From: Candidatus Melainabacteria bacterium
GTDB lineage: Bacteria > Cyanobacteriota > Vampirovibrionia > Obscuribacterales > Obscuribacteraceae
DNA: 64,000 bases
Direction of reading: 5' to 3'
Assembly (NCBI GenBank): GCA_003151275.1
Contig: PLXC01000086.1
Span: 28,514-92,513 of the forward strand
Shown: positions 44,474-57,515 of the stretch, piece by piece
Position numbering within the stretch: position 1 is the first letter of the stretch
Layout of the letters: each line of letters opens with the position of its first letter
Notes under the pieces: model-generated
Database searches by the model: none
Told to the model about the DNA's origin: nothing
What the model saw: only the letters and a program-made list of their open reading frames with translations
Made by a program: the position numbers and the translations under genes

Positions 44474-44692
44474 TCACATAGCTGGATTTGTCACGATCAC
44501 GCGGACAATCATTGAGCCATGGTTCATATAATAGATCCCAGGCTGATCGTTAAATCGAAACGCGACATATCCTGATCCAACTGGGGGGACGAAATTCAGC
44601 TGACTGCTGCCAGAATTGTATGGTTTGCCGGATTCGCCTAGACGTCCTTCAAGCGCGCCAGCTGGCATTTTGTCAATCACTAGCGGAGAAAA
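44474..44692 (-). pseudogene. Displaced C-terminal half of a LecA-like lectin domain (in frame after the TAG)
   Basis: Directly after the TAG of the gene at 44693 the same frame continues FSPLVIDKMPAGALEGRLGE ... SGYVAFRFNDQPGIYYMNHG ... VRVIVTNPAM and stops. It aligns with the last 60 residues of the complete lectin domain next to it, including FRFNDQPG, but lacks the first half. It has no start of its own (GTG 44680 at best). It looks like the old lectin tip left behind when a new tip was put in front. Readthrough of the TAG would make a protein with one and a half lectin domains. Confidence 0.7.
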
Positions 44693-45124
44693 CTAACCAG
44701 GCCGAGTGACAATGACTCGCACAATCTGCCGTCCAAGGTTGTTACCATATTGGCCTGGCTGATCGTTGAATCTGAATTGAACAAAACCTGAGCCCTGAGG
44801 CGTAAAGTTCAGTTTGAATTTGCCTGCGAAATAAGCTACTCCTGCATCTCCGGCTCTAGCTTCGAGCCCTGAAGAGGGCAAGCCGTCATTGAGATCACCC
44901 ATCCCTGCGCCGTCAGCACTTAAACCAACATAAGGAATGGAACCATTACTCCAGATGCCATCGGAACGTGAATCAACCCAAACATTTTCACCAGATCCTG
45001 CAAACGCGGTAGAGACAGTCCACTTTTCGTTAATCGCGTCGACTATCAGAACATCGTTTGCGACAACGACCTGTCCAGAAACGGCAATCAACTGATAGAT
45101 GTTGGGATAGTTCCAGTCACCGCC
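44685..45124 (-). repeat. 440-bp lectin-domain block, copy 1
   Basis: Differs from 46241-46680 at only five of 440 positions by my comparison. Sequence on either side, in the same two genes and their remnants, is far more diverged. The borders are sharp, at GGAGAAAACTAACC on one side and CAGTCACCGCC on the other. Confidence 0.88.
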
Positions 45125-45751
45125 TATAGGATCAGTTGTGCCTACAGGAGGAGAAGATCCGTTTGTGATACCAGCGAACGAAATGCTTTTCGCTGATTGG
45201 CTTGAAGTGAGTTTAAACTTCTGCAAGTGTTCGATTGCCCGGCAGGCGCTGAAGCTTAATGTAGCCGGTTTTCCCAACCCTGGGACCTCACTTAGGATTG
45301 GCACTGATTCCATAGTCACGAATGGTCCAACTTTGTAAATGCACTGAACTGTATACTCGTAAACATTCTCCAGAACATCTGGTTGTTCTTGTGGAGGCAG
45401 GTTCGGACCGATCGTTTCAGTTTTGCCTGTATGGAAATTTGTGATTGTGAGATATAAGTCGACGCCTGATTTTTTGTACCCGCCTGCTGGTTGGAGTTTG
45501 AGGAATCGTCCCAGATTTGAATTGAGAAATGAATCCGCGGTTTTCACAGCCGCCGAAAGTGAGCCATTAAAATCTTGTTGCACAGCAGCCGCATTGACTG
45601 TCTCGTGGGCGAGCAGCGTCAACGAGGCCGCCGCTGTGGCAGTTCCCAATAAGTTCAGCAGAGGAAACAAGCACATGATCAGTAGCACAAAAAGCGTCAA
45701 CGAAAACTCTATAAACAAATGACCGTGTTTTGATCGCATGTTTTTAACCAT
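44693..45751 (-). CDS. TadE-like membrane protein with C-terminal LecA/PA-IL-like lectin domain (copy 1)
   Basis: The 352-residue protein begins with a TadE-like pilin segment (HGHLFIEFSLTLFVLLIMCL), with the Glu expected in TadE-like proteins. A helical and strand region follows (residues about 35-215), then a C-terminal lectin domain (about 220-352). The end of that domain (GKFKLNFTPQGSGFVQFRFN, DQPGQYGNNLGRQIVRVIV) fits Pseudomonas LecA well: LecA has YNDVPGTYGNNSG, where Asp and the two Asn bind calcium, and all three are present here. A surface structure binding galactose-like sugars is inferred. A Pho-box-like promoter lies 190-240 bp upstream. Domain identity is recalled, not searched. 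Confidence 0.75.
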   Translation of the reverse strand: MVKNMRSKHGHLFIEFSLTLFVLLIMCLFPLLNLLGTATAAASLTLLAHETVNAAAVQQDFNGSLSAAVKTADSFLNSNLGRFLKLQPAGGYKKSGVDLYLTITNFHTGKTETIGPNLPPQEQPDVLENVYEYTVQCIYKVGPFVTMESVPILSEVPGLGKPATLSFSACRAIEHLQKFKLTSSQSAKSISFAGITNGSSPPVGTTDPIGGDWNYPNIYQLIAVSGQVVVANDVLIVDAINEKWTVSTAFAGSGENVWVDSRSDGIWSNGSIPYVGLSADGAGMGDLNDGLPSSGLEARAGDAGVAYFAGKFKLNFTPQGSGFVQFRFNDQPGQYGNNLGRQIVRVIVTRPG

Positions 45752-45937
45752 TGATTATATTGTGCTACCCGTTGACCGAGTTCGTTTCGAGTGCTTGGTC
45801 CGTTGCCATTTTTGTTACTTCTATGAGACTGCGCCGGCACTGCAAGCGTGTAACCGCATGTGGTGCTGAATGCATGGAACCGGAGATCGGATAGTAATAT
45901 GCGAATCGCATAATGGCAGTGCGCTTTCAATAAGACT

Positions 45938-45992
45938 AAGATAGTCTTGCTGTGTGACATAGTTATGGCACTTCTGTGGCAGTAACGTGTCG
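45938..45992 (-). promoter_or_regulatory. Site 1: four 11-bp-phased repeats plus -10 element
   Basis: Minus strand: CGACACGTTAC, TGCCACAGAAG, TGCCATAACTA, TGTCACACAGC, then TATCTT starting 15 nt after the first base of GTCAC. It points toward the lectin-pilin gene at 45751. The repeat spacing (one helical turn) is that used by OmpR/PhoB-type regulators. Confidence 0.72.
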
Positions 45993-46050
45993 TTAGTTCA
46001 AGCAGCTGGAGCAGTCACGTGTCGTTAGTTCAAGCAGCTGGAGCAGTCAC
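45987..46050. repeat. 32-bp perfect tandem duplication
   Basis: GTGTCGTTAGTTCAAGCAGC with its next 12 bases occurs twice in direct succession (45987-46018 and 46019-46050). It contains the end of the lectin remnant and touches regulatory site 1. Confidence 0.92.
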
Positions 46051-46248
46051 TATCACTCGTACTATCATTGAGCCCCGGTTCATGTAAAACACCCAGGCTG
46101 ATCGTTGAAGCGAAATTCAACATATCCCGAGCCGCTTGGTGGTGAGAAATTCAGTTGACTGCTGCCGGATAGATATGGTTTGCTGATTCGCCCTAAACGT
46201 CCTTCAAGTGCGCCAACTGGCATTCCGTCAATCATTGGCGGGAGAAAA
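46030..46248 (-). pseudogene. Frameshifted half-lectin remnant after copy 2
   Basis: Homologous to the remnant at 44474. It reads VGALEGRLGRISKPYLSGSS and YVEFRFNDQPG, then loses frame by one base and resumes FYMNRGSMIVRVIVTAPAA before a stop. An extra G at the border with the full gene also puts it out of frame with that gene. It is clearly not a functional domain now. Confidence 0.75.
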
Positions 46249-46680
46249 CTAACCAGGCCGAGTGACAATGACTCGCACAATCTGCCTTCCAAGGTTGTTA
46301 CCATATTGGCCTGGCTGATCGTTGAATCTGAATTGAACAAAACCTGAGCCCTGAGGCGTAAAGTTCAGTTTGAATTTGCCTGCGAAATAAGCTACTCCTG
46401 CATCTCCGGCTCTAGCTTCGAGCCCTGAAGAGGGCAAGCCGTCATTGAGATCACCCATCCCTGCGCCGTCGGCACTTAAACCAACATAAGGAATGGAACC
46501 ATTACTCCAGATGCCATCGGAACGTGAATCAACCCAAACATTTTCACCAGATCCTGCAAACGCAGTAGAGACAGTCCACTTTTCGTTAATCGCGTCGACT
46601 ATCAGAACATCGTTTGCGACAACGACCTGTCCAGAATCGGAAATCAACTGATAGATGTTGGGATAGTTCCAGTCACCGCC
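46241..46680 (-). repeat. 440-bp lectin-domain block, copy 2
   Basis: Near-identical partner of 44685-45124 (five differences seen). It encodes the whole lectin domain and the stop codon of the gene at 46249. Confidence 0.88.
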
Positions 46681-47271
46681 AGTAGGGTCAGTGTCTAGAG
46701 TACTGGAATTGTTAGAGCCGCCGCCACCGCCACTTGAGCTCAATAAGGAATTTTTGGCCAACGCCAGTCCGTCGACATGTTCAACGGCTCTGCTGGCGTA
46801 GAAACTAAGAGTTGCTGGCTTACCTAGACCGGGCACTTGCGAAAGAAACGGTACCGCAGCGAGTGACACAACCGGTCCAACTTCGTAGGTACTCTTAGTT
46901 GTGTACTCATAAACATTAGCCAAAATATCCGGAGGTGCGGGCAGCGGAGCGTTAGGACCTACAGTGGTGTTCTTGTAAGTGTGAAAGTCGGTAACATTTA
47001 TGTATAGATCAATACCTGATTGGTTGTAGCCACCGACAGGCTTCATTCGCACAAAGTTTGAAATTCCCAAACTCAAGAACGAGGTAGCCTCTGAGCTGAC
47101 TGCGTCCAACGCACCGGAGAACTTCTGTCTAGCAGCAGCCGCAGACGCGGCTTGATGCGCAAGTAGACCGATACTGACTGAGGCAATGACCAGACCAAGT
47201 AAGTCTATTAGCGGATAAATCGCCAGGAAGAAAACAATGAAGAGCACGATGGCTAGCTCAGACTCTGTCAA
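46249..47271 (-). CDS. TadE-like membrane protein with C-terminal LecA/PA-IL-like lectin domain (copy 2)
   Basis: The 340-residue paralogue of the gene at 44693 has the same layout: TadE-like hydrophobic start (LTESELAIVLFIVFFLAIYP), middle region (VRMKPVGGYNQSGIDLYINV, VPFLSQVPGLGKPATLSFYA), a Gly/Ser linker (SSSGGGGGSNNSS) and the lectin domain. The middle regions of the two proteins are only moderately alike, while the lectin domains are almost identical. The only in-frame start is TTG 47271, since a TGA lies six codons before it. No minus-oriented regulatory site precedes it; its promoter is unclear. Confidence 0.75.
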   Translation of the reverse strand: MTESELAIVLFIVFFLAIYPLIDLLGLVIASVSIGLLAHQAASAAAARQKFSGALDAVSSEATSFLSLGISNFVRMKPVGGYNQSGIDLYINVTDFHTYKNTTVGPNAPLPAPPDILANVYEYTTKSTYEVGPVVSLAAVPFLSQVPGLGKPATLSFYASRAVEHVDGLALAKNSLLSSSGGGGGSNNSSTLDTDPTGGDWNYPNIYQLISDSGQVVVANDVLIVDAINEKWTVSTAFAGSGENVWVDSRSDGIWSNGSIPYVGLSADGAGMGDLNDGLPSSGLEARAGDAGVAYFAGKFKLNFTPQGSGFVQFRFNDQPGQYGNNLGRQIVRVIVTRPG

Positions 47272-47361
47272 GTTACGCTTTCGTTGTCAGAATCTAATTA
47301 AATAGATTATTCATAGTCAAAGATCCGCGCCAAAGCGGAGTTATTTCAACAAAAGGTGGCC

Positions 47362-47416
47362 GGTTATGAAACTGCCACAAACATGCCATTTGGGAGTCAC
47401 TAGGTGGCATTATCCT
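47362..47416 (+). promoter_or_regulatory. Site 2: four 11-bp-phased repeats plus -10 element
   Basis: GGTTATGAAAC, TGCCACAAACA, TGCCATTTGGG, AGTCACTAGGT, then TATCCT 15 nt after the first base of GTCAC. It points to the GH5-like gene at 47655. Nearly the same string is seen at site 4. Confidence 0.75.
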
Positions 47417-47444
47417 GATTAAGTTGCAGGAAGCGATCGAGGCT

Positions 47445-47500
47445 TGTTATACATTAGCCACAACGATGCCACGACGAAGCCAGCTTCTATCCCCTATTCT
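47445..47500 (+). promoter_or_regulatory. Site 3: four 11-bp-phased repeats plus -10 element
   Basis: TGTTATACATT, AGCCACAACGA, TGCCACGACGA, AGCCAGCTTCT, then TATTCT (spacing one base longer than in the other sites). A second copy of the array lies 83 bp upstream in the same orientation, so the GH5-like gene has two. Confidence 0.68.
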
Positions 47501-47578
47501 CTACATACGTTCTAGCCTCGCCTCTTTCGTAATGCCTATAAGCTAATACGTTTAAGAGTCTTACTAATTACACAATCA

Positions 47579-47650
47579 ATGCAGATCGAATGCACCAAAT
47601 GCGGTTCTACCAATTCGCGTTCGTTTTGTTTAACCCTAGCGCGGAGATAA
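47579..47650 (+). CDS. Conserved 23-codon upstream ORF
   Basis: Encodes MQIECTKCGSTNSRSFCLTL-ARR and stops at TAA within the ribosome binding site region of the GH5-like gene, 4 nt before its ATG. The CxxCG start looks like half a zinc ribbon. The ORF is kept in the second gene copy (49364-49435) with two differences. It could be a leader that couples translation, or a relic. Confidence 0.42.
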   Translation: MQIECTKCGSTNSRSFCLTLARR

Positions 47651-47654
47651 GCAC

Positions 47655-49283
47655 ATGTCATCAGCAACAGATCAAGCTCAAGCTCAAGCTCTCGATGCTC
47701 CACTGAAACCCGCCGACAAAGCGAACGATTCGAACAACGCTACAATGGCGGCCAGCCAGTGGGAAAGCAACGGTTTTCACAAGTCGATTAGCGCTATGCA
47801 GCCAGCTGACAGCAGCGCAGGTGTTCTACCGAATCTCACAATCGACAACACCGGAAGCGGAAACGTCACTATAAATTTCAACTCTAGTGGGTCTGATCGC
47901 GGAAACTCCGATGGGAATCTAGGCAACAACCCGCTTTCCGGCATGAGCGCTCGGCTACAACAGGCAGAAGCTCCCGGTGGTGCTTTGAGTTCCATCGCTC
48001 CAGAGCTATTGAAAAACCTAAACGGGGACATGCAATCCCTTCAAAATGATTTCGGTAAATTTCAAGGTGATTTAAATCAATTGACCGGGAAGGACAACAC
48101 AGGCACTACACTCGGTGGCACGGCTAACCAGGGCGACAAAGGCACTCACTCCTGTGGAACCGATAACACGGGCAACACAGGCACTACACCCGGTGGAGCC
48201 GATAACACGGGCAACACAGGCACTACACCCGCTGGAACCGATAACACGGGCAACCCTATCACTACACCCGCTGGAACTGATAACACGGGCAATCCTATCA
48301 CTACACCCGCAGAAGTGACCCCGCCTGTAGTGACAGCTCCTGGCGTTGCCACCGGCAATTTCTCTGTGCAAAATGGAAAAATCATGGGACCAGATGGGCA
48401 ACCATTTGTAGCTAAAGGTGTAGCGGTCTATGCAGCAGATGCAGCGAATCAAGCACAGGCTATTTTTGCTGCGACGCCCAATTTAAACTTTATTAGACTG
48501 GCTGCGACTCCATCAACCGATTCTCCGGCCAGTGTTCAAGCGGCTATTCAAGCGATTCATGCTCTGAATCCGCAGGCCGTGGTCGAGGTTGAAGATCATA
48601 CATCCCCAGGCACTGACGGTACCACCAGTAATGTTTTGAGCGGCGACGCACTCACAGCTGAAACTAACTGGTATGCGCAGATCGCAGCTGCTAACAAAGA
48701 TAATCCTTATGTCTGGTACGGCACAGCAAACGAGCCAAACAATCCAGGCGACCAACAAGCAGTCGTGAATCAAGAAACGGCGATTTACAACTCTGTTCGC
48801 GGCGCCGGTGCGCAGAACATGATGATGCTTGAATCTGCTGGTGGTTGGGATTCTTCGCCTATGCAAGCGAACCCTGGTGCCTATGCTAATATGTCAAACG
48901 TAGCTTGGGATGTTCATTACTACGGTTGGAAGAGCAACGGTTCAACTTCCCTCGCCGATAACGTGAATGCGTTACAGCAGATGGTGGGAAGTTTCAACGG
49001 CATAACAGAGGCTGGGGGTCAAGCTATGCCGGTTCTGGTTGGTGAATACGGCAATTCGACCACCGGTCAAGGAGTTGATAATAACGGCACTGCCGCCGTT
49101 GACGCCGTTCAAACGGCCACCAACCAAGGGATTGTGCAGGGTGCAGTTGCCTGGGTTTGGGATGGCGGTAACAACCCGGGCGGTGATTCCATCACTCAAG
49201 ACGGAACCATGAACACTCTAACTCCATACGGGCAGGAGATAATTAACTACAACAACACCGGTGCGACGGGCCCGGCAAACTAG
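47655..49283 (+). CDS. GH5-like glycoside hydrolase with repeat linker, intact copy
   Basis: The 542-residue protein has an N-terminal module (residues about 1-145) nearly shared with the next gene: SSATDQ..., LDAPLKPADKANDSNNAT, VLPNLTIDNTGSGNVTINFN. A linker has four copies of a 13-residue unit of the type GTDNTGNPITTPA. A TIM-barrel domain (about 235-540) follows, with YGTANEPNNPGDQQ (acid/base Glu of GH5-like enzymes) and MPVLVGEYGNSTTG (nucleophile Glu). VAWDVHYYGWKSNG and VAWVWDGG also fit. There is no classical signal peptide, although such enzymes normally act outside. GGAG lies 8 nt before the ATG. Two Pho-box-like sites lie upstream. Confidence 0.8.
   Translation: MSSATDQAQAQALDAPLKPADKANDSNNATMAASQWESNGFHKSISAMQPADSSAGVLPNLTIDNTGSGNVTINFNSSGSDRGNSDGNLGNNPLSGMSARLQQAEAPGGALSSIAPELLKNLNGDMQSLQNDFGKFQGDLNQLTGKDNTGTTLGGTANQGDKGTHSCGTDNTGNTGTTPGGADNTGNTGTTPAGTDNTGNPITTPAGTDNTGNPITTPAEVTPPVVTAPGVATGNFSVQNGKIMGPDGQPFVAKGVAVYAADAANQAQAIFAATPNLNFIRLAATPSTDSPASVQAAIQAIHALNPQAVVEVEDHTSPGTDGTTSNVLSGDALTAETNWYAQIAAANKDNPYVWYGTANEPNNPGDQQAVVNQETAIYNSVRGAGAQNMMMLESAGGWDSSPMQANPGAYANMSNVAWDVHYYGWKSNGSTSLADNVNALQQMVGSFNGITEAGGQAMPVLVGEYGNSTTGQGVDNNGTAAVDAVQTATNQGIVQGAVAWVWDGGNNPGGDSITQDGTMNTLTPYGQEIINYNNTGATGPAN
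48156..48311 (+). repeat. Four 39-bp tandem coding repeats
   Basis: 13 codons each (GTDNTGNTGTTPG, GADNTGNTGTTPA, then two GTDNTGNPITTPA). The same type of unit is found in the next gene, where a one-base insertion breaks the frame. Shorter GTDQ units occur in the zincin gene. Confidence 0.9.
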
Positions 49284-49363
49284 CAGCATTTTTAAATCAG
49301 TCCATTTAAAGGCCGGTAGGCTTTAAGCTAACACGTTTAAGAGTCTTACTAATTACACAATCA

Positions 49364-49435
49364 ATGCAGATCGAACGCACCAAATGCGGTTCTACCAATT
49401 CGCGTTCGTTTTGTTTAACCTTAGCGCGGAGATAA
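49364..49435 (+). CDS. Upstream ORF, second copy
   Basis: 23 codons matching 47579-47650 except Cys5 to Arg (MQIERTKCGSTNSRS) and a silent change. It ends 4 nt before the ATG of the next gene. The whole 110 bp upstream of the two GH5 genes is nearly identical, but the Pho-box-like arrays are not included. Confidence 0.38.
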   Translation: MQIERTKCGSTNSRSFCLTLARR

Positions 49436-49439
49436 ACAT

Positions 49440-50006
49440 ATGTCATCAGCGACAGATCAAGCTCTCGATGCTCCACTGAAACCCGCCGACAAAGCGAACG
49501 ATTCGAACAACGCTACATTGTCCGCTAGCCAGTGGCAAAGCGGAGGTTTTCAAAATTCGATTAGGGCTATGCAGCCAGCTGACAGCAGCGCAGGAGTTCT
49601 ACCGAATCTCACAATCGACAACACCGGAAGCGGAAACGTCACTATAAATTTCAACTCTAGTGGGTCTGATCGCGGAAACTCCGATGGGAATCGAGGCAAC
49701 ATGGGTCCGTCAGGCGATTCTCCGATGCCTGCCAACAACCCGCTCTCCGGCATGATCACTCAGCTACAACAGGCAGAAGGTTCCGGTGCGTTGGGTGCCA
49801 TCGCTCCAGAGCTATTGAAAAACCTGAACGGGGACATGCAATCTCTTCAAAAAGATTTCGGTAAATTCGAAGGTGATTTAAATCAATTGATCGGAAACCC
49901 TATCACTACACCCGCTGGAACCGATAACATGGGCAACCCTATCCCTACACCCGGTGGAGCCGATAACACAGGCAATCCAATCACTACACCCGGTGGCAGC
50001 CGATAA
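49440..50006 (+). CDS. GH5-like gene copy 2, 5' part (before frameshift)
   Basis: 188 codons repeating the N-terminal module of the gene at 47655 (LDAPLKPADKANDSNNATLS, VLPNLTIDNTGSGNVTINFN, ELLKNLNGDMQSLQKDF), then linker repeats. It ends at TAA 50004-50006 because of one extra C near 49997: GGTGGCAGCC stands where the neighbouring repeats have GGTGGAGCC. Taking this base out restores a protein of about 545 residues, the size of copy 1. It could be a real frameshift, slippage-type variation or a sequencing error. Confidence 0.75.
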   Translation: MSSATDQALDAPLKPADKANDSNNATLSASQWQSGGFQNSIRAMQPADSSAGVLPNLTIDNTGSGNVTINFNSSGSDRGNSDGNRGNMGPSGDSPMPANNPLSGMITQLQQAEGSGALGAIAPELLKNLNGDMQSLQKDFGKFEGDLNQLIGNPITTPAGTDNMGNPIPTPGGADNTGNPITTPGGSR

Positions 50007-51078
50007 CACAGGCAACCCTATCCCTACACCCGGTGGAACCGATAACACAGGCATTGGCAACTTGCCTACGCCCGTCACCAACAACCCCAGCGACGGCAGC
50101 GGTTTTCAGATCCAAAACGGGAAGCTGCTTATTGGCGGAAAACTCTTAAGTGGAGTTGCAGTAACTGGACAATACGCACAACAGGTCGGTCCGGACCAGC
50201 TTGCAAATGAGATTGCAACTAAGTTTCCAAACATCAATGTGGTGCGTTTATCTACGAGTCCTGAAGGTGGTGCCTTTACTAACGGGGGGCAGGCCCAAAA
50301 TGGGGAGACCATCGATAACATAGACCAGACTATAAAGGCACTCAACGCGAAGGGGATTGGAGTAGTACTAGACAACCACGGTTCAGACGCTAACACTGCT
50401 GACAATGTGTCTCAGACCGGAGCAGAACCCGCTTGGTTCGCGCAAATTGCGAAAGATAATCTGAACAACAATATGGTGATGTTCCAGCCTTTAAACGAAC
50501 CGATAGGGAGTGACGCTGCCATTGCTCAAGAACAGAAGGCTGCCTATGATGCTATTCGAGGCACAGGATCTAACGCAGTCGTAGCATTCGACTTAGCAGG
50601 AGGCAGCGGCGCAACGCCGATGCTATCGAATCCCGACATGTACAACCAGATGAGTAACTATGTGATCGATGCACACTCTTATGCGGCAGGCAGCTCAGAT
50701 CCGGCCTCAGCTTTGCAGTCCGAAGTAGCGCAATTGAGTTCTCTAAGGGAAGCAGGCGGTGGAGCTGTGCCTGTATATATCGGCGAAACCGGCAACTCCA
50801 TAGATGGATCTAATCCAGATCCAGCTGCTACGGCAGAACTAAACGCAGTATGGTCTGGCGGAACTGGAGGTATAGCGTGGCTCTATGATGGGGCTGCCAC
50901 AGGCTTCAATGGTGTCGACCATCTCACAAATCCAGACGGTAGCTTGACAGGGTACGGTCAGGAAATAGCTGGACTTATACAAAATGGCGCTTCGTACACT
51001 GAAAGACGAAACGGTAATTTAACAACGTTTGGTGAGCAGATCGATTCAGGTTCAGGACCCATTCGAAGGGAGGAATGA
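50007..51078 (+). CDS. GH5-like gene copy 2, catalytic part (after frameshift)
   Basis: Frame +1 relative to the 5' part and open from upstream of the shift; an ATG at 49954 is the first start in this frame. It encodes linker repeats and a full GH5-like barrel: VMFQPLNEPIGSDAAIAQEQ (acid/base Glu), VIDAHSYAAGSS, GAVPVYIGETGNSIDG (nucleophile Glu), GGTGGIAWLYDGAATGF. The sequence shows no further damage, which argues against a long-dead gene. The barrel differs clearly from that of copy 1 although the N-terminal modules are alike, so the two catalytic ends may have different substrates. Its stop overlaps the next start (ATGA). Confidence 0.75.
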
Positions 51079-51080
51079 TG

Positions 51081-51263
51081 ATGGACGACCGAGCATTTAA
51101 CGTTGTTAAAATGTCGGACAACACTGCCCAAAGCAGTGACAGTCCGAACGCACTAGGACAATGGAACTTGAAGGATTGGCAACAATTTCCTCACCGCATC
51201 TGCACACTTACCAAGCATGTCGCTCACAGACGGGGAATCGAACGAAAGTGGTGGAGAAAATGA
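51081..51263 (+). CDS. 5' part of the zincin gene (separate frame)
   Basis: Starts at one of three ATGs (51075, 51078, 51081) behind a very good GGGAGG site and overlaps the end of the GH5-like gene. It reads MSDNTAQSSDSPNALGQWNL-KDW, which recalls the N-terminal modules of the GH5 proteins (SNNAT.ASQW). The frame then ends. The next frame, open from 51168, continues into the zincin; a one-base shift between 51168 and 51263 would join them. Confidence 0.5.
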   Translation: MDDRAFNVVKMSDNTAQSSDSPNALGQWNLKDWQQFPHRICTLTKHVAHRRGIERKWWRK

Positions 51264-52041
51264 AAAGGAGGAACACCACCGCCACCACCACCATGGCCGC
51301 GGAGAAGCTGCGAAGCCGCCTACTTTAGGCTCGCCAGGCACCGACCAGCCAGTTACCCCCTCTGGCACAGACCAGACGCCAGTTACCACCCCAGCCGGCA
51401 CCGACCAGCCAGTGACCAACCCAGCCGGCACCGACCAGACGCCAGTTACCACCCCAGCCGGCACCGACCAGATGCCTCCAATCGCGACGCCGGGGTCGCT
51501 CCCAGCTAATACGGCATCTTTGAATCAGGCACTCTCGCAAGTGACTTTTGATTCCGGTGTCAGTCAAGCGACGCAGCAACAAGTCCTGAACACGTTTCAG
51601 AACAGTCCTCAGTCGATGATCGATGCCTTCAACGCTATGGGAACCAAGATGGTGATCAGCTCGCAAGGCATTGGATCAGGAATAGGCGGGTATTTTGACC
51701 CAGGCAGTAACCAGGTCGTCATCGACGGTTCCAGTCCCAATGACATACGGGAAACCGTCGACCACGAACTCTTCCACGTAGCAGACCAGCAGCTTGGCAT
51801 AACCGGATCTGCGCAATGGCAGCAGATGTCCGCCGCAGATTTCGCGCGCGTCGATCCGAACAGCCTGGGTCTACCGGTTCAGTTTGTCGATGCTCCTGTG
51901 ATCGCTGGCGTGGGCAGTAGTGATGTCGCCGCTGAGCTAACAGCCTTCGCTGCCGGCAATGATCAAACGGGCACCGGAAGCGCTCTGGCGCAGACCTATC
52001 CAGATCTTTACCAGTACATTAAGCAGTCGCTCGGCGCATAG
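51217..52041 (+). CDS. HExxH metalloprotease-like (zincin) protein with repeat linker
   Basis: 274 codons from ATG 51217, which has no ribosome binding site; the true N-terminus is probably the piece at 51081. A His/Glu/Gly-rich start (KEEHHRHHHHGRG) is followed by repeats of GTDQPVT / GTDQTPVTTPA. The last about 190 residues contain RETVDHELFHVADQQLGI, a complete HExxH zinc motif with a downstream Asp (HELFHVAD), then a segment with DVAAELTAFAAG that may give the third ligand Glu. No signal peptide. The shared linker type links it to the GH5-like genes. Confidence 0.72.
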   Translation: MSLTDGESNESGGENEKEEHHRHHHHGRGEAAKPPTLGSPGTDQPVTPSGTDQTPVTTPAGTDQPVTNPAGTDQTPVTTPAGTDQMPPIATPGSLPANTASLNQALSQVTFDSGVSQATQQQVLNTFQNSPQSMIDAFNAMGTKMVISSQGIGSGIGGYFDPGSNQVVIDGSSPNDIRETVDHELFHVADQQLGITGSAQWQQMSAADFARVDPNSLGLPVQFVDAPVIAGVGSSDVAAELTAFAAGNDQTGTGSALAQTYPDLYQYIKQSLGA

Positions 52042-52169
52042 ACAAGGGCACCAGTGGTGATGCCTAGCCACGTCGTTTTTCGACCATGTCAAAACGTTCT
52101 AGGTACAAAGCAAAAGGACCGTAATCGTAAGAGGAATTGCCCATTCACGCCGTTTTTCTCCGAGACGGA

Positions 52170-52224
52170 TGTTATAAAACTGCCACAATGATGCCATCAT
52201 ATCGTCACCTAGTTTTACTATCAT
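52170..52224 (+). promoter_or_regulatory. Site 4: four 11-bp-phased repeats plus -10 element
   Basis: TGTTATAAAAC, TGCCACAATGA, TGCCATCATAT, CGTCACCTAGT, then TATCAT 15 nt after the first base of GTCAC. It is followed 30 nt later by the small ORF at 52255 and further on by the gene at 52530. The first two repeats differ little from the enterobacterial Pho box. Confidence 0.78.
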
Positions 52225-52254
52225 CAACGACACTCAGGAGGTCGTGAAATCGCG

Positions 52255-52383
52255 GTGACAACAAGATTAGGTTCGTACTCTTCACAAGCTTTCAGTCCAA
52301 ATCATTTTCTCAAGATGTGCCAAAGACTGTGCGATCATGACTGCGGTGGTTCAATTTGTGTTGGCTACACAACAAAATCTTAG
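52255..52383 (+). CDS. Possible small cysteine-containing protein (42 aa)
   Basis: GTG start, AGGAGG 13 nt upstream (a bit far), reading MTTRLGSYSSQAFSPNHFLK then MCQRLCDHDCGGSICVGYTTKS. Four cysteines in the last 22 residues and a position right behind site 4 make it a fair candidate. No homologue is known to me. Confidence 0.38.
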   Translation: MTTRLGSYSSQAFSPNHFLKMCQRLCDHDCGGSICVGYTTKS

Positions 52384-52529
52384 TTTCAGTTCACAGGCGC
52401 ATCACAAGAAAAACAGATTTGCTCAGTAATATGAAATTCTGAAGCAGGACCTTATTAATTTACCAAATCCGATCCCGATCAACTGGTCATCGAAACATAG
52501 ATGATCTATCCATATTAATGAGGAAGCTT

Positions 52530-53222
52530 ATGCACCCAACATTTGTGTCGTCGAATCACGTTTTACCGACCAAGTCTTATTCGTACTCTAATTACTCCAG
52601 GCAAGCATATGACTTCAGCGAAGTAACTTTAGCACTGAATCTTTCTCACGAATCAGCTGACTCTGGTCGACTGACCGAACCGATGCAGCATCTGCTTGCT
52701 GAGATTCTAGTCAAGGCTGGCATTATTTCTCACTGTGATGTCTTGAATGCTCGACACGTAGGCCGTTCGGAGGAGGCAAAGAAAAGCTTCGCTGAGATTG
52801 TCGACATGTTCAGCGAAAGAGTTTTGACTCTCGAGCAAGCTATCGTGGCAATTAATCACATTCATCTTACCGACGCACCTCTCTGCGAGGCGCTCTCACT
52901 TGTTTGCAAAAGACAGCCTTCACGAGTTGTTTGCGAATCAGTGATCGATTTTCTTAAGCAGACAGGTTTGGTCACAGACAATGCAATAGAGGGTCTAAAG
53001 CTCGAAAAAGCTGTTGAGCCAAAGGTACTTTGCCGGGCACTTCTTTCTGCATCCGTAATTGACAGCGAAACTTTACGGAACGCAACCAGACTCAGATATC
53101 TTCTGAACAAAGGTGAGCTGGATGTTGAGCAAGCGAAAGAAGCGATGCGCTTCTGCATAAGCCACAACATTGATGTTGAGCAATGCGTCGATGTCTGCCA
53201 TCTTCCCGTCGGCACCGGGTAA
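52530..53222 (+). CDS. Helical-repeat protein, possibly GspE-N/MshEN-like
   Basis: Start ATG 52530 is chosen (GAGG 6 nt upstream); an ATG 12 bp earlier has no such site. After a Ser/Tyr-rich head (KSYSYSNYSRQAYDFSEVTL) the 230-residue protein has four or so helical units, each of the form LxxxLxxxGxIxxxxLxxA: LLAEILVKAGIISHCDVLNA, VIDFLKQTGLVTDNAIEGLK, LCRALLSASVIDSETLRNA. This resembles the N-terminal domains of type II/IV secretion ATPases, some of which bind c-di-GMP. No ATPase part is present. It would be transcribed from site 4. Confidence 0.65.
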   Translation: MHPTFVSSNHVLPTKSYSYSNYSRQAYDFSEVTLALNLSHESADSGRLTEPMQHLLAEILVKAGIISHCDVLNARHVGRSEEAKKSFAEIVDMFSERVLTLEQAIVAINHIHLTDAPLCEALSLVCKRQPSRVVCESVIDFLKQTGLVTDNAIEGLKLEKAVEPKVLCRALLSASVIDSETLRNATRLRYLLNKGELDVEQAKEAMRFCISHNIDVEQCVDVCHLPVGTG

Positions 53223-53255
53223 GCGCGTGAATAGTGTGGCAAACACATCACGCGT

Positions 53256-53942
53256 TCAAATCAGAATTGAATCATCGAGAACGTAGCCGACCCGGTGTAC
53301 TGTGCGGAGCAGCGAATTTTCGGCGTTCGGGGTGTCGAGTTTTTTCCGCAGGCGAGCGATGCACATACGTACCGCATCGGCGGATTGGTCGGAATCGCTT
53401 TCCCAGACGTTATTGAGTAACGAATCGATGGAGAAGACTTCGTTTGGATGGCGGATGAAGAATTCCAACAAGGCAAACTCTCTGCGATTGAGGTCGAGCT
53501 CTAGATTCTCTTTTAAAATGCATCGTTTTGCTAAATCAAGTTGCAGTCCAGCGCACTCAAACATGTTCGAACATGAACTCACCGCACGCCTTAGCAGTGC
53601 TCTGATTCTTGCCAGAAGCTCTTGGTTGCTAAAAGGTTTGACTAAGTAATCATCTGCACCCAAATCCAGCCCGGTAGTCTTGTCGTCGATTGATCCACGC
53701 CCGGTCAGCATGAGGATTGGCGTGGTCGAGTCATGTTTTCTCAGTTCTCGACAGATTTCCATGCCATTTTTTCCAGGCAATTCGATATCGAGTAATATTA
53801 TCGAAAACGACGAACACAGAGCGATTTCCAGACCGTCAATCCCGTTGGATGCGTATTCGACAGTAAATTTTTCGTGCTCTAAGACGGCAATGACCAGGTC
53901 GGCAAGCTCCTCATTATCCTCGACGAAAAGTAATTTAGGCAT
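53256..53942 (-). CDS. OmpR/PhoB-family response regulator
   Basis: The 228-residue protein has an N-terminal receiver domain (LLFVEDNEELADLV acidic pair, ILLDIELPGKNGMEI phosphoacceptor Asp, LMLTGRGS Thr, DDYLVKPF Lys) and a C-terminal winged helix (LDLNRREFALLEFFIRHPNE, DAVRMCIARLRKKLD, LLRTVHRVGYVLDD). Both are complete. It starts 12 nt after the TadG-like gene (GGAG 6 nt before the ATG) and so belongs to the operon led by site 5. OmpR/PhoB regulators bind direct repeats about 11 bp apart, which is the period of the five arrays in this cluster. That makes it the prime candidate to bind them. Confidence 0.92.
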   Translation of the reverse strand: MPKLLFVEDNEELADLVIAVLEHEKFTVEYASNGIDGLEIALCSSFSIILLDIELPGKNGMEICRELRKHDSTTPILMLTGRGSIDDKTTGLDLGADDYLVKPFSNQELLARIRALLRRAVSSCSNMFECAGLQLDLAKRCILKENLELDLNRREFALLEFFIRHPNEVFSIDSLLNNVWESDSDQSADAVRMCIARLRKKLDTPNAENSLLRTVHRVGYVLDDSILI

Positions 53943-53954
53943 TCAGACTCCGTT

Positions 53955-55565
53955 TCATCTGGCTCGGAAGGTAATATCGACAGCGCTAGCCGGCTTTTGA
54001 TATGTTTGTCGAACCGCTCCTGAGGCTGGGCCGAAGGGGAAGTTGACAGCGGTGGTTGGACGGAGACCAGGATTCTTAGTAACCGTGGGCGGTGCAGCAA
54101 GGTTCTCTAGAGGCATTGGTTCGCCTGCATGCAAACCACCTTTGCTGCGGCCACTTTGATAGACATAGTCCTTCAATAACAAATCGTATACGCTGTGGTT
54201 ACTGCTGTTTACGGCGCCGCCACTCACGGCAAGCAGCTGATTTTGACTGACTGGCAAAACAGCATTTTGCACTGCTTGTGGTGGCAAGACAATATTTCCA
54301 GTTTGATCCTTTTCGAGCATAAACATCCGCCCGGAAGCGATAGTCAAAGGATTTTGCAATGCTGCCATCAGCGACCCGATGTTCAGCGCCGGACCCGCTC
54401 GTCGGATCCAATTGTATAGCGCAAGCCTCATAATGCTTCCTACTTTGGGATGAGAGTCATCAAACTGGGCTACTTTTAGATCACTAAGTGAGGCGGAGGG
54501 AGTATCGCCTGCAGATGGAGTTTGTAAAAGATCAGTCGGTGAACTAGCGAACATAGGACTGGCAAAAACATCAAATAGCGTTTTTAGCTCTGGTATCGAA
54601 GGTCCAACAACTTGAATGGTCAAAGCTCCCGAAGCTGGTCTGCTGTCAATCAAGCACGCTGGTTGAGCGCAAGCAACCGCATGGACGATCATTTGGGATG
54701 GTTTACCAAATTGATCCGTTTCGTTGTATTCTTCATCGCCTTCGCATTTGACTATGGACGGAATCACATACGGAAGCGTCTGGATGTTGGGCTGGAACTG
54801 TTTGAAGTCAACGAGTGTGACGCTATCGGATGCTGGTGCGAATACAAAATCTTGCTGGTCGTACTTCACATTGGTGCAAGATTTATAAAAGCCGTTATCT
54901 TGCTCATTGTTGGAGACGCTGGCGTAGGTATCAGGTTGTGGAATCGGAAGATTACTCGTTAGGTTCGGCACACAACCGAGAGAAAGTTTGAGGCTGCCTG
55001 CGCGAAGTCTGTTCTTCGGGCCACAAATGCGAATAACATTAGCTTCGTAAGCCGTTTTCGCATCAGCTAATGGATCGACAATATTGCCATCGATATCGGT
55101 GAAGGGAGTGCCCATATCAATTGATTGTCGGAGGGCTCGAACCAAATTATCCTTTGCTGAGATCGCATTTTTGTAATCTTCCAATGCCAGTTTTTTCATC
55201 AAATCGTCGTTTAGTCGATCCGCAACGATCATATCTAAGCGCACGGTGCCGAGTACGCAATTGATACTCTGTGCAGAAAGAAAGTAATTGTCTCGAGCCA
55301 TGGTGGCTTTACCGACTGGCGCGTAGTCGGACAAAGAGACAAAGCCCAAGTTGGGATCATCAATCACAATTTTGCTCAGATCGTGTGCTGCCGCGAGCGC
55401 TGCTGCTTCGATAGCGGTTTTTTGTTCCTGATGCGTGGCTAGAATTCGACAAAAACGCAAGGCAAAAAAGCCGACTCCAACGACCGTCATTATCGCTGCC
55501 ACGACGAGAATTAAAGCGCTGCCTTGCTCCACTCTTCGGATTTTTTTCTGGTTCATCCTAGGCAT
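53955..55565 (-). CDS. TadG-like pilus-associated protein
   Basis: The 536-residue protein starts MPRMNQKKIRRVEQGSALIL. The QGSALILVVAAIMTVVGVGF segment is the Tad-like N-terminal hydrophobic helix, and IEAAALAAAHDLSKI after it is the classical TadG/TadE_like continuation (A-x-D-x-A-A-L-A-A-A). The long extracellular part holds several Cys (CVLGTVRL, CGPKNRL, CVPNLTSN, CAQPACLID) and no von Willebrand domain that I can see. Likely a surface or pilus-linked protein. AAGG lies 7 nt upstream of the ATG and site 5 about 100 bp upstream. Confidence 0.75.
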   Translation of the reverse strand: MPRMNQKKIRRVEQGSALILVVAAIMTVVGVGFFALRFCRILATHQEQKTAIEAAALAAAHDLSKIVIDDPNLGFVSLSDYAPVGKATMARDNYFLSAQSINCVLGTVRLDMIVADRLNDDLMKKLALEDYKNAISAKDNLVRALRQSIDMGTPFTDIDGNIVDPLADAKTAYEANVIRICGPKNRLRAGSLKLSLGCVPNLTSNLPIPQPDTYASVSNNEQDNGFYKSCTNVKYDQQDFVFAPASDSVTLVDFKQFQPNIQTLPYVIPSIVKCEGDEEYNETDQFGKPSQMIVHAVACAQPACLIDSRPASGALTIQVVGPSIPELKTLFDVFASPMFASSPTDLLQTPSAGDTPSASLSDLKVAQFDDSHPKVGSIMRLALYNWIRRAGPALNIGSLMAALQNPLTIASGRMFMLEKDQTGNIVLPPQAVQNAVLPVSQNQLLAVSGGAVNSSNHSVYDLLLKDYVYQSGRSKGGLHAGEPMPLENLAAPPTVTKNPGLRPTTAVNFPFGPASGAVRQTYQKPASAVDITFRAR

Positions 55566-55665
55566 TATTGACCTTCTCTCTGACCTTGAGGACGGGAGAT
55601 TCCTGCTTCAGCGAATCTGCGATTGCTTTTAATTTGTCCAAGACCGCACAACTAGTAACTACTGG

Positions 55666-55720
55666 AGGTTAATTCACCAGTGTGGCTGTGTTATGGCTGC
55701 TCTGTGGCAAAGTTATGACC
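55666..55720 (-). promoter_or_regulatory. Site 5: four 11-bp-phased repeats plus -10 element
   Basis: Minus strand: GGTCATAACTT, TGCCACAGAGC, AGCCATAACAC, AGCCACACTGG, then TAACCT 15 nt after the first base of GCCAC. It overlaps the last codons of the histidine kinase and points at the TadG-like and response-regulator genes, so the regulator could control itself. Confidence 0.72.
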
Positions 55721-57515
55721 GGGCCGGCAAGCGCACCCAAAACCGGCTACCTGTCCCACTTGCAGAGCTTTCGACGCCAATTGAACCTTTATGTTGTTCG
55801 ACAATCGCTTTGCAAATAGCCAAGCCTAGACCGGTGCCTTTTCCCCGTTTGTTATCGCTCTGTTCAATTTGTTTGAATCGCTCAAATATTATTATTCGGA
55901 ATTCTTCTGGAACGCCGCGGCCTTCGTCTTGCACTGATATTTCTAATTCATCGCCGTAATTTTTTGTGCCAATGTCGATCCTCCCTCCCGCCGGCGAATA
56001 CTTGATCGCATTGGAGAGCAAGTTGATAAATACTTGCGTCAGGCGCTCAGAGTCAGCTGAGATCACTTCCCCAGATTCGGCGAAAGTGATGTTCACTTCA
56101 GTTTGTTTGGCCAGGTTTTTCAAAGTTTCAATAGAGTCAAGCAACACTGTATCGATGCTGGTATTTGCATACTCAAGTTGAAAGGTACCGCTTTCAAACT
56201 TTTCAATGTCGAGAAGGTCGTTGACCAATGCAATCAACCTGTCCGTGTTTCGCAGTGCCACTGGTGTGAAGCGAGCTAACTTTTCTGAGACTTCGCCGTA
56301 GACTCCAGATTCCAGTGACTCAAAATAGACATGTATCGCAGATAGTGGCGAACGTAAATCATGTCCGACCATGGCAACAAACTGTTGCTTGATCAAGTCC
56401 ATCCGTTTACGCTCGGAGATATCATGCGCGGTGCAAAAGAATGCCTTTTCCTGTTTCGACCATGAACAGGACCAGAACATATCTAGAGTCGAAAGTCGCG
56501 ATTTGACCTTGTTTTCGTATGAGACGACAGCAGAGTTGTTTAGGGCCGCTTTCATTTGCTGATCGGTGGCATTGCGATCTGATTCGTCAATAATGTCTAG
56601 ATAGTGAGTACCGACCAATTCTGATGGTTTAGTACCCCATTGAATCTGGCTAGCAGGACTAACCTCAATAAATCGGCCCTGCTCGTCTATTGAGCAAATT
56701 ACATCGACTGCGTTATCTATGATTGCTCGCTCACGTCGAGACATTTCCTGCAACGTGTTGGCTACAGAATGCAATGTCTTGTCTAGAGTCGAGATCTCAT
56801 CGTTCCCCGGTAGTGGCTTGAGCAGTGATTCTCTGCGAGTCAAGCGCATGGAATTTTCTGAAATGATAAGCAAGCGATTAGCAATTGCTTTGGTGAATAG
56901 GAGAATCAAAATCAGAGCGCTGACAATATTTAGTGCTACACCATAAGCAAGTTGTACCTTGATGGCTTCACGAGCCTCGGGCAACGCTTGTTTGGGATCG
57001 ACCGATTGTATAGAACGTTCATCCTCCAGAAGCGCACGCCTCAAGCGGGGAATTTCATCGGTGATTGTTTTCAGCTCCGGATATTCGAGAATTGCTTGCG
57101 TTGAATTTGACGGGCTCAATTCATTTAATCGGCTAAGTAATTTGCTGCTCAATGCACTAAGCTTTTCTATTTTCTCCACTTGAGATGGATTTGCTGTAAA
57201 AATCTGGCGTAAAGCGGTTAGTTGTTTGGGAACTCCCAACTTAGCTTGTTCGTAGAGTCGCTCATAAGCTTGATTTGGATCTTGATTTCTGTCACTTCCG
57301 AGCCTGCCAAGCACGGCATTGTCAAGCAATGCGTATAGCCAATTCAGATGACCAACTACGGTTCTCGATCTTGCTTCTTGCCCTTCGAGGTTTTCGAGAT
57401 GCTTTACCAGCTGCCCGTATTCGATGAACAATCCGATCTGAACTAGAAAAGTAATTGATAATAGCGCTATGGCTTTATGGTAAAGCGACAATTTCAAAGT
57501 TTCGCCGTCTCGCAA
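55713..57515 (-). CDS. Sensor histidine kinase with PAS domain
   Basis: About 600 residues. An N-terminal membrane helix (AIALLSITFLVQIGLFIEY), a periplasmic helical sensor domain, and a second membrane helix (YGVALNIVSALILILLFTKA) come first. A HAMP-like segment, PAS domain (AVDVICSIDEQGRFIEVSPA), HisKA (FVAMVGHDLRSPLSAIHVYF, phospho-acceptor His) and HATPase_c (LLSNAIKYSPAGGRIDIG, DEGRGVPEEF, GKGTGLGLAICKAIVEQH) follow. All kinase motifs are intact. The start is probably TTG 57515; later in-frame starts exist. It most likely pairs with the response regulator two genes on. Confidence 0.9.
   Translation of the reverse strand: MRDGETLKLSLYHKAIALLSITFLVQIGLFIEYGQLVKHLENLEGQEARSRTVVGHLNWLYALLDNAVLGRLGSDRNQDPNQAYERLYEQAKLGVPKQLTALRQIFTANPSQVEKIEKLSALSSKLLSRLNELSPSNSTQAILEYPELKTITDEIPRLRRALLEDERSIQSVDPKQALPEAREAIKVQLAYGVALNIVSALILILLFTKAIANRLLIISENSMRLTRRESLLKPLPGNDEISTLDKTLHSVANTLQEMSRRERAIIDNAVDVICSIDEQGRFIEVSPASQIQWGTKPSELVGTHYLDIIDESDRNATDQQMKAALNNSAVVSYENKVKSRLSTLDMFWSCSWSKQEKAFFCTAHDISERKRMDLIKQQFVAMVGHDLRSPLSAIHVYFESLESGVYGEVSEKLARFTPVALRNTDRLIALVNDLLDIEKFESGTFQLEYANTSIDTVLLDSIETLKNLAKQTEVNITFAESGEVISADSERLTQVFINLLSNAIKYSPAGGRIDIGTKNYGDELEISVQDEGRGVPEEFRIIIFERFKQIEQSDNKRGKGTGLGLAICKAIVEQHKGSIGVESSASGTGSRFWVRLPARS

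Follow-up and report, generated by a model that had tools for sequence, protein, structure and literature searches.

Five phased GCCAC-type repeat arrays in an Obscuribacterales gene cluster as probable promoters of an OmpR/PhoB-family response regulator

A 64,000-nucleotide stretch of contig PLXC01000086.1 from a Candidatus Melainabacteria bacterium of the order Obscuribacterales (the window; all coordinates are positions in it, with strands in brackets or as plus and minus) carries five arrays, A to E, of four direct repeats with an 11-bp period, each followed by a -10-like hexamer. The five arrays are real, and they look like functional control elements of a promoter type that is known in kind. 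We consider it fairly probable that they are operator-promoters of an OmpR/PhoB-family response regulator (RR), most likely the local RR encoded at 53256 with the histidine kinase encoded at 55713. RR molecules would sit head-to-tail on the four units, whose core is GCCAC and whose 11-bp spacing is close to one turn of the helix, with the last unit in place of a -35 element, and the bound RR would hold the sigma factor over the -10 hexamer 15 nt downstream. Through array E the RR would raise its own transcription together with that of a TadG-like protein, and through the other arrays it would jointly activate a pilin with a lectin domain, a glycosidase of family GH5 and a 234-aa protein. Binding and activation, as well as the identity of the regulator and its signal, are what we infer from the sequence patterns described below.

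Five arrays with an 11-bp period in the window

A first-pass annotation of this DNA had described five arrays of four units at these positions and no further site in the window, and both points were borne out. All five could be extracted in register (Table 1) and scored 32.8-36.8 bits with a matrix of the 24 unit-core columns, whereas the next non-overlapping place (61853, plus strand) scored 10.6 bits. A pattern search of the window gave four strict and five relaxed matches, compared with none in 300 dinucleotide shuffles. When each site was left out of the matrix in turn, at most five places in the window, the left-out site included, reached the score of that site.

The direct repeats have the 11-bp period of OmpR/PhoB-family tandem operators. 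Unit 2 is GCCACA in all five arrays, as the annotation had stated, and units 2 to 4 are of the GCCAC, GCCAT, GTCAC or GCCAG type. Unit 1, described there as mostly GTTAT, is GACACG in array A, which is compatible with that description. The commonest base is shared on average by 4.3 of the five sites in the cores, by 2.95 in the spacers and by 2.4 and 2.8 in the two flanks. Since the cores are conserved and the spacers and flanks far less so, the arrays are not copies of one recent duplication.

We define the offset of the hexamer as the number of nucleotides from the first base of unit 4 to its start. The -10-like hexamer lies at +15 in four arrays and at +16 in array C (TATTCT), exactly as annotated, and such fixed spacing from the last unit is characteristic of PhoB-type (class II) activator promoters. 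The annotation had also pointed to the same distance in the pstS promoter of Escherichia coli; the upstream region of that gene indeed has TATTTT, which we take to be its -10 element, at the +15 offset. In the portions of the literature consulted, PhoB sites are described as overlapping the -35 region (PMC3348028), as requiring strict spacing to the core promoter (PMC10294691) and as lying 10 bp before the -10 element (PMC1906773).

All five arrays are intergenic, with two exceptions in detail: array E shares bases of its unit 1 with the kinase stop codon, and a mechanically called open reading frame (ORF) of 83 aa (45709-45960), which we do not take as a gene, overlaps array A. A 32-bp sequence is present in two tandem copies at 45985-46048, directly upstream of array A, and its first copy overlaps unit 1 of this array.

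Recurrence and promoter geometry in related genomes

The arrays were sought in 53 genomes of the order Obscuribacterales and in 329 others sampled from the class (382 in total). The four-unit pattern without mismatch was found in 16 of the 53 genomes of the order (2 for the reversed control); a tandem repeat in one of them, G003, gives 10 matches. A fuller, unit-only pattern with up to two mismatches gave 41 matches in 24/53 genomes at period 11 and one match in the order for its reversed control, while the period-10 control gave a single match in one genome (7 for its own reversed control). At least eight of the 41 matches are coding, all in one conserved gene (seven were fetched and are coding, and the eighth, in G053, was judged by likeness), and two overlap in one array (G015:C53). 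Among the other 329 genomes of the class, 10 had a period-11 match, as did two of 81 further genomes sampled from the phylum, some of which may belong to the class.

Two other searches were set aside. Period 12 proved an unfair control, with at least 58 matches in 27/53 genomes that by eye were mostly in-frame 12-bp repeats (about 110 for the reversed control), and a search for three TGCCA units at variable distances was overwhelmed, among the matches listed, by repeats that appeared to be coding.

For the distance to the hexamer, the matches were merged into 63 distinct arrays chosen by their units alone, of which 44 lie outside and 19 inside a stop-to-stop frame of 150 codons. The lack of a hexamer was no ground for exclusion, but the set omits arrays that begin less than 40 nt into a locus or less than 100 nt before its end, as well as places that had not been fetched (e.g., G053:C310 and G205:C32), and orthologous arrays were not collapsed. 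Of the 44 arrays without a long ORF, 12 have TANNNT at +15 and three have it at +16, while the other offsets from 4 to 33 have 0 to 3 occurrences. With a background of 0.5 per offset, P is about 7e-14 for +15 and 2e-12 after correction for 30 offsets; collapsing one orthologous pair leaves 11/43 at +15 (P 2e-12). Arrays with a long ORF have TANNNT at +15 in 3/19 cases. In an alignment of 14 of the 15 arrays with the hexamer at +15 (L057 was left out), information is concentrated in the four cores and the T, A and T of the hexamer, with little elsewhere; the core and hexamer signal is high by selection, and the blank spacers are the informative part. One orthologous array pair has kept cores and hexamer while its flanks diverged; a second has kept both upstream, but its leader is conserved too.

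The -10 distance, the recurrence of period 11 in relatives and the pstS geometry together make OmpR/PhoB-type activator promoters the most likely interpretation of the arrays.

Gut relatives of the class (L144-L152) have similar GCCA arrays of four to five units with period 11, which do not lie in a long frame; these nine arrays are included in the 44, and none has the hexamer at +15. The one that was viewed, L147, is perhaps at a gene start.

Genes at the arrays and the candidate regulator

The genes of the window cluster are listed with the arrays in Table 1.

Table 1. Repeat arrays and genes of the cluster, in window coordinates.
Feature	Positions	Strand	Units 1-4 in register	Description
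Array A	45938..45992	minus	GACACGTTACT / GCCACAGAAGT / GCCATAACTAT / GTCACACAGCA	units at 45991, 45980, 45969, 45958; -10-like TATCTT 45943-45938 at +15; upstream of lectin-pilin 1
Array B	47362..47416	plus	GTTATGAAACT / GCCACAAACAT / GCCATTTGGGA / GTCACTAGGTG	units at 47363, 47374, 47385, 47396; -10-like TATCCT 47411-47416 at +15; upstream of GH5 protein
Array C	47445..47500	plus	GTTATACATTA / GCCACAACGAT / GCCACGACGAA / GCCAGCTTCTA	units at 47446, 47457, 47468, 47479; -10-like TATTCT 47495-47500 at +16; second array upstream of GH5 protein
Array D	52170..52224	plus	GTTATAAAACT / GCCACAATGAT / GCCATCATATC / GTCACCTAGTT	units at 52171, 52182, 52193, 52204; -10-like TATCAT 52219-52224 at +15; upstream of 234-aa protein
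Array E	55666..55720	minus	GTCATAACTTT / GCCACAGAGCA / GCCATAACACA / GCCACACTGGT	units at 55719, 55708, 55697, 55686; -10-like TAACCT 55671-55666 at +15; upstream of TadG-RR pair
OmpR/PhoB-family RR	53256..53942	minus		Pfam PF00072 (receiver), PF00486 (winged helix); 12 bp after TadG; proposed array reader
TadG-like protein	53955..55565	minus		Pfam Tad E 0.007, below cut-off; homologues in relatives
Sensor histidine kinase	55713..57515	minus		Pfam PAS, HisKA, HATPase; CHASE3 match below cut-off; proposed RR partner
Lectin-pilin 1	44693..45751	minus		long hydrophobic helix at the N-terminus; PA-IL/PllA-like lectin fold at the C-terminus
Lectin-pilin 2	46249..47271	minus		68% identical to lectin-pilin 1; no array in own direction
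GH5 (cellulase-family) protein	47655..49283	plus		Pfam PF00150; no signal peptide by eye; downstream of B and C
234-aa protein	52518..53222	plus		no Pfam match at E <= 0.01; downstream of D

The local RR is the probable reader of the arrays: all five lie within 10 kb around its gene, none lies elsewhere in the 64 kb, and array E heads the TadG-RR pair. The first-pass annotation had proposed that this RR or another PhoB homologue activates the cluster. The operator-promoter part of that proposal is supported by the phase, the -10 distance and the array at the TadG-RR pair; PhoB status is not, as the RR reaches 187 bits with the PhoB model, whose cut-off is 296. Among the 25 best models, neither the local RR nor the kinase reached a curated cut-off.

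Several observations weigh against the local assignment or the promoter reading. Clusters with TadG, pilin and kinase genes in relatives (L139, L140 and L143 with an RR; L142 with none listed) showed no four-unit array in a strict scan and a look at 13 intergenic stretches. Relatives' arrays of the window-type unit adjoin many other genes, and near them OmpR-type RR genes are about as dense as in general (8 in 41 loci totalling 334 kb; the background was taken from looser first-look counts, e.g., 171 in 6.7 Mb). A relative's genome encodes 0 to 50 close OmpR-type RRs (E <= 1e-48) with similar recognition helices, so another RR could be the reader. Finally, TANNNT is missing at both +15 and +16 in 29 of the 44 arrays that no long ORF covers. 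Since RRs are not enriched near the arrays and no array was seen at the relatives' clusters, it is from the window alone that the assignment to the local RR is drawn. It is possible, if doubtful, that these OmpR-type activator promoters answer to a different and perhaps more global RR, and that the local kinase-RR pair serves something else; the scattered, mostly RR-distant arrays of the relatives would fit this, whereas the confinement of the window's arrays to the surroundings of the RR, with array E in front of the pair that includes its gene, favours the local RR.

In two relatives' loci, L138 and L134, the array lies 105 and 78 bp from an OmpR-type RR gene. In the set L202, L203 and L205, the array of G015 and G006 stands in front of an arginase-family gene, behind which come genes for an OmpR-type RR and for a kinase that is similar to the window kinase over its whole length (36%); in G018 the distance between array and RR is 370 bp, and the kinase matches in part. 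At L139, two GACAC pairs upstream of pilins were seen by eye only.

Thirty proteins next to relatives' arrays, mostly encoded by the first gene downstream, were searched; for L209 and L225, other proteins took the place of the downstream ones. No Pfam match at E <= 0.001 was obtained for 18 of them. The others include arginase-family, glutathionylspermidine-synthase-like, PP2C, Sel1, TPR, LysM, MoxR-type and SpoIIE matches, an EF-hand match below cut-off and one OmpR-type RR. Six array neighbours in three genomes (G041, G042 and G043) have in common an uncharacterised N-terminal domain with no obvious signal peptide, and a hidden Markov model (HMM) of it found a seventh protein, whose gene comes second after one of these arrays; the loci of this family are L066 2081-2614, L137, L213, L214, L216, L218 and L219, with LysM behind the domain in two. 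The HMM matched none of the window proteins. The suggestion in the first-pass annotation that one signal ties adhesion to degradation did not hold as a conserved rule of a confined regulon, given that relatives' arrays stand at many other genes and that none was found at the TadG-pilin-kinase clusters. As a tentative extension, in which we have less than even confidence, there may be a promoter code across Obscuribacterales, in which phased GCCAC-type arrays ending 15 nt before the -10 element would serve a large set of OmpR-type RRs specific to the lineage, told apart by spacer and edge preferences, and would control surface lectins, glycosidases, the leaderless N-terminal-domain family (some with LysM) and some RR operons.

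As for the cluster itself, relatives of the TadG-like protein were found at E <= 1e-30 in 48/53 genomes of the order and at E <= 1e-110 in 8 of the 382 of the class, with a best identity of 44%; the nearest TadG proteins overall are 94% and 61% identical, and a search of viral contigs returned none. Sequence searches give little for the lectin domain, with a Pfam match (E 0.02) that stays below cut-off and no PDB chain under E 0.1, and the fold match comes from a moderate model (pLDDT 73, pTM 0.47) with no Foldseek match with E under 0.001. The C-terminal parts of lectin-pilins 1 and 2 are nearly identical, and by eye there are apparent further truncated lectin-domain copies behind the two genes (44475-44690 and 46020-46250). 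The protein at 51217-52041 has a low-complexity Thr/Pro/Gly-rich N-terminal half, a weak match to the putative metallopeptidase family DUF6782 and a DHELFH motif.

Alternative readings and known systems

The arrays might instead repress, or serve divergent promoters, rather than activate the gene in front. Two arrays common to G006, G015 and G018 lack TANNNT at +15 but share a sigma-70-like promoter facing the opposite way (TTGCCA, or TTGCAA in one copy, -N17-TATTGT, by eye from alignments), although the G015 copy of one of them has TATATC at +15 after an additional unit; in the window, arrays B and C are also upstream of the divergent lectin-pilin 2. With activator geometry in 5/5 window arrays and the strong +15 peak across genomes, we regard this as improbable.

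Still less likely, in our judgement, is that they are true Pho boxes, which would put the cluster under a PhoB orthologue and so under phosphate starvation. The first-pass annotation had noted that the first two units resemble a Pho box, which is the case for units 1 and 2 of array D (TGTTATAAAACTGCCACA), and phase and -10 distance are as in E. coli pstS. Its suggestion of a phosphate cue found no such backing. Like the RR, the kinase falls short of its model (187 bits against PhoR, cut-off 334), and the GCCAC core is unlike the cyanobacterial SphR consensus CTTAACCT, as given in the consulted part of PMC1906773. None of 27 PstS-like loci of relatives has an array with up to four mismatches, although only one of these 27 hits passes the family cut-off and the loci reach at most 1.5 kb out, and there was no phosphate gene among the Pfam-matched downstream proteins of relatives' arrays. 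A phosphate response is therefore probably not what the arrays serve.

That the arrays are chance or repeat artefacts, i.e., low-complexity or coding repeats of period 11, has in its favour the eight coding matches, the G003 repeat and the long ORF over 19/63 arrays, and is practically dismissed by the shuffles, the period-10 and reversed controls, the mostly noncoding position and the -10 peak.

If the arrays are indeed promoters of an OmpR/PhoB-family RR, a PA-IL-type lectin pilin, a glycosidase and a two-component system would be joined in one testable circuit, and a sequence rule with fixed promoter geometry would make regulons readable from genomes alone. Hardly anything seems to have been described about regulation in these uncultured, non-photosynthetic cyanobacterial relatives; in a literature search for response regulators, histidine kinases and Tad pili in Obscuribacterales or Melainabacteria, none of the titles listed dealt with it.

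The closest known counterpart is the PhoB-dependent pstS promoter of E. coli, which likewise has four tandem 11-bp units and a hexamer at +15, counted from the G of its unit 4. It differs in its unit (TGTCA vs. GCCAC) and its targets, and the window RR is no PhoB orthologue by the curated cut-off. In the part of PMC4832192 consulted, PhoP of Mycobacterium tuberculosis is described as binding in tandem to 7-bp motifs with 4-bp spacers, three or four motifs giving higher affinity. According to the sources in the portions consulted, this PhoP and that of Streptomyces share with the window the OmpR/PhoB-family RR and 11-bp repeats (7 bp plus 4 bp) of more than two units, whereas the core motif (GTTCACC in Streptomyces) and the genes are different. 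The Pho box of SphR, in the same phylum, resembles the arrays in having at least three repeats in tandem, there of 8 bp, and differs from them in its core and, as far as that part of PMC1906773 goes, in serving phosphate genes rather than surface genes.

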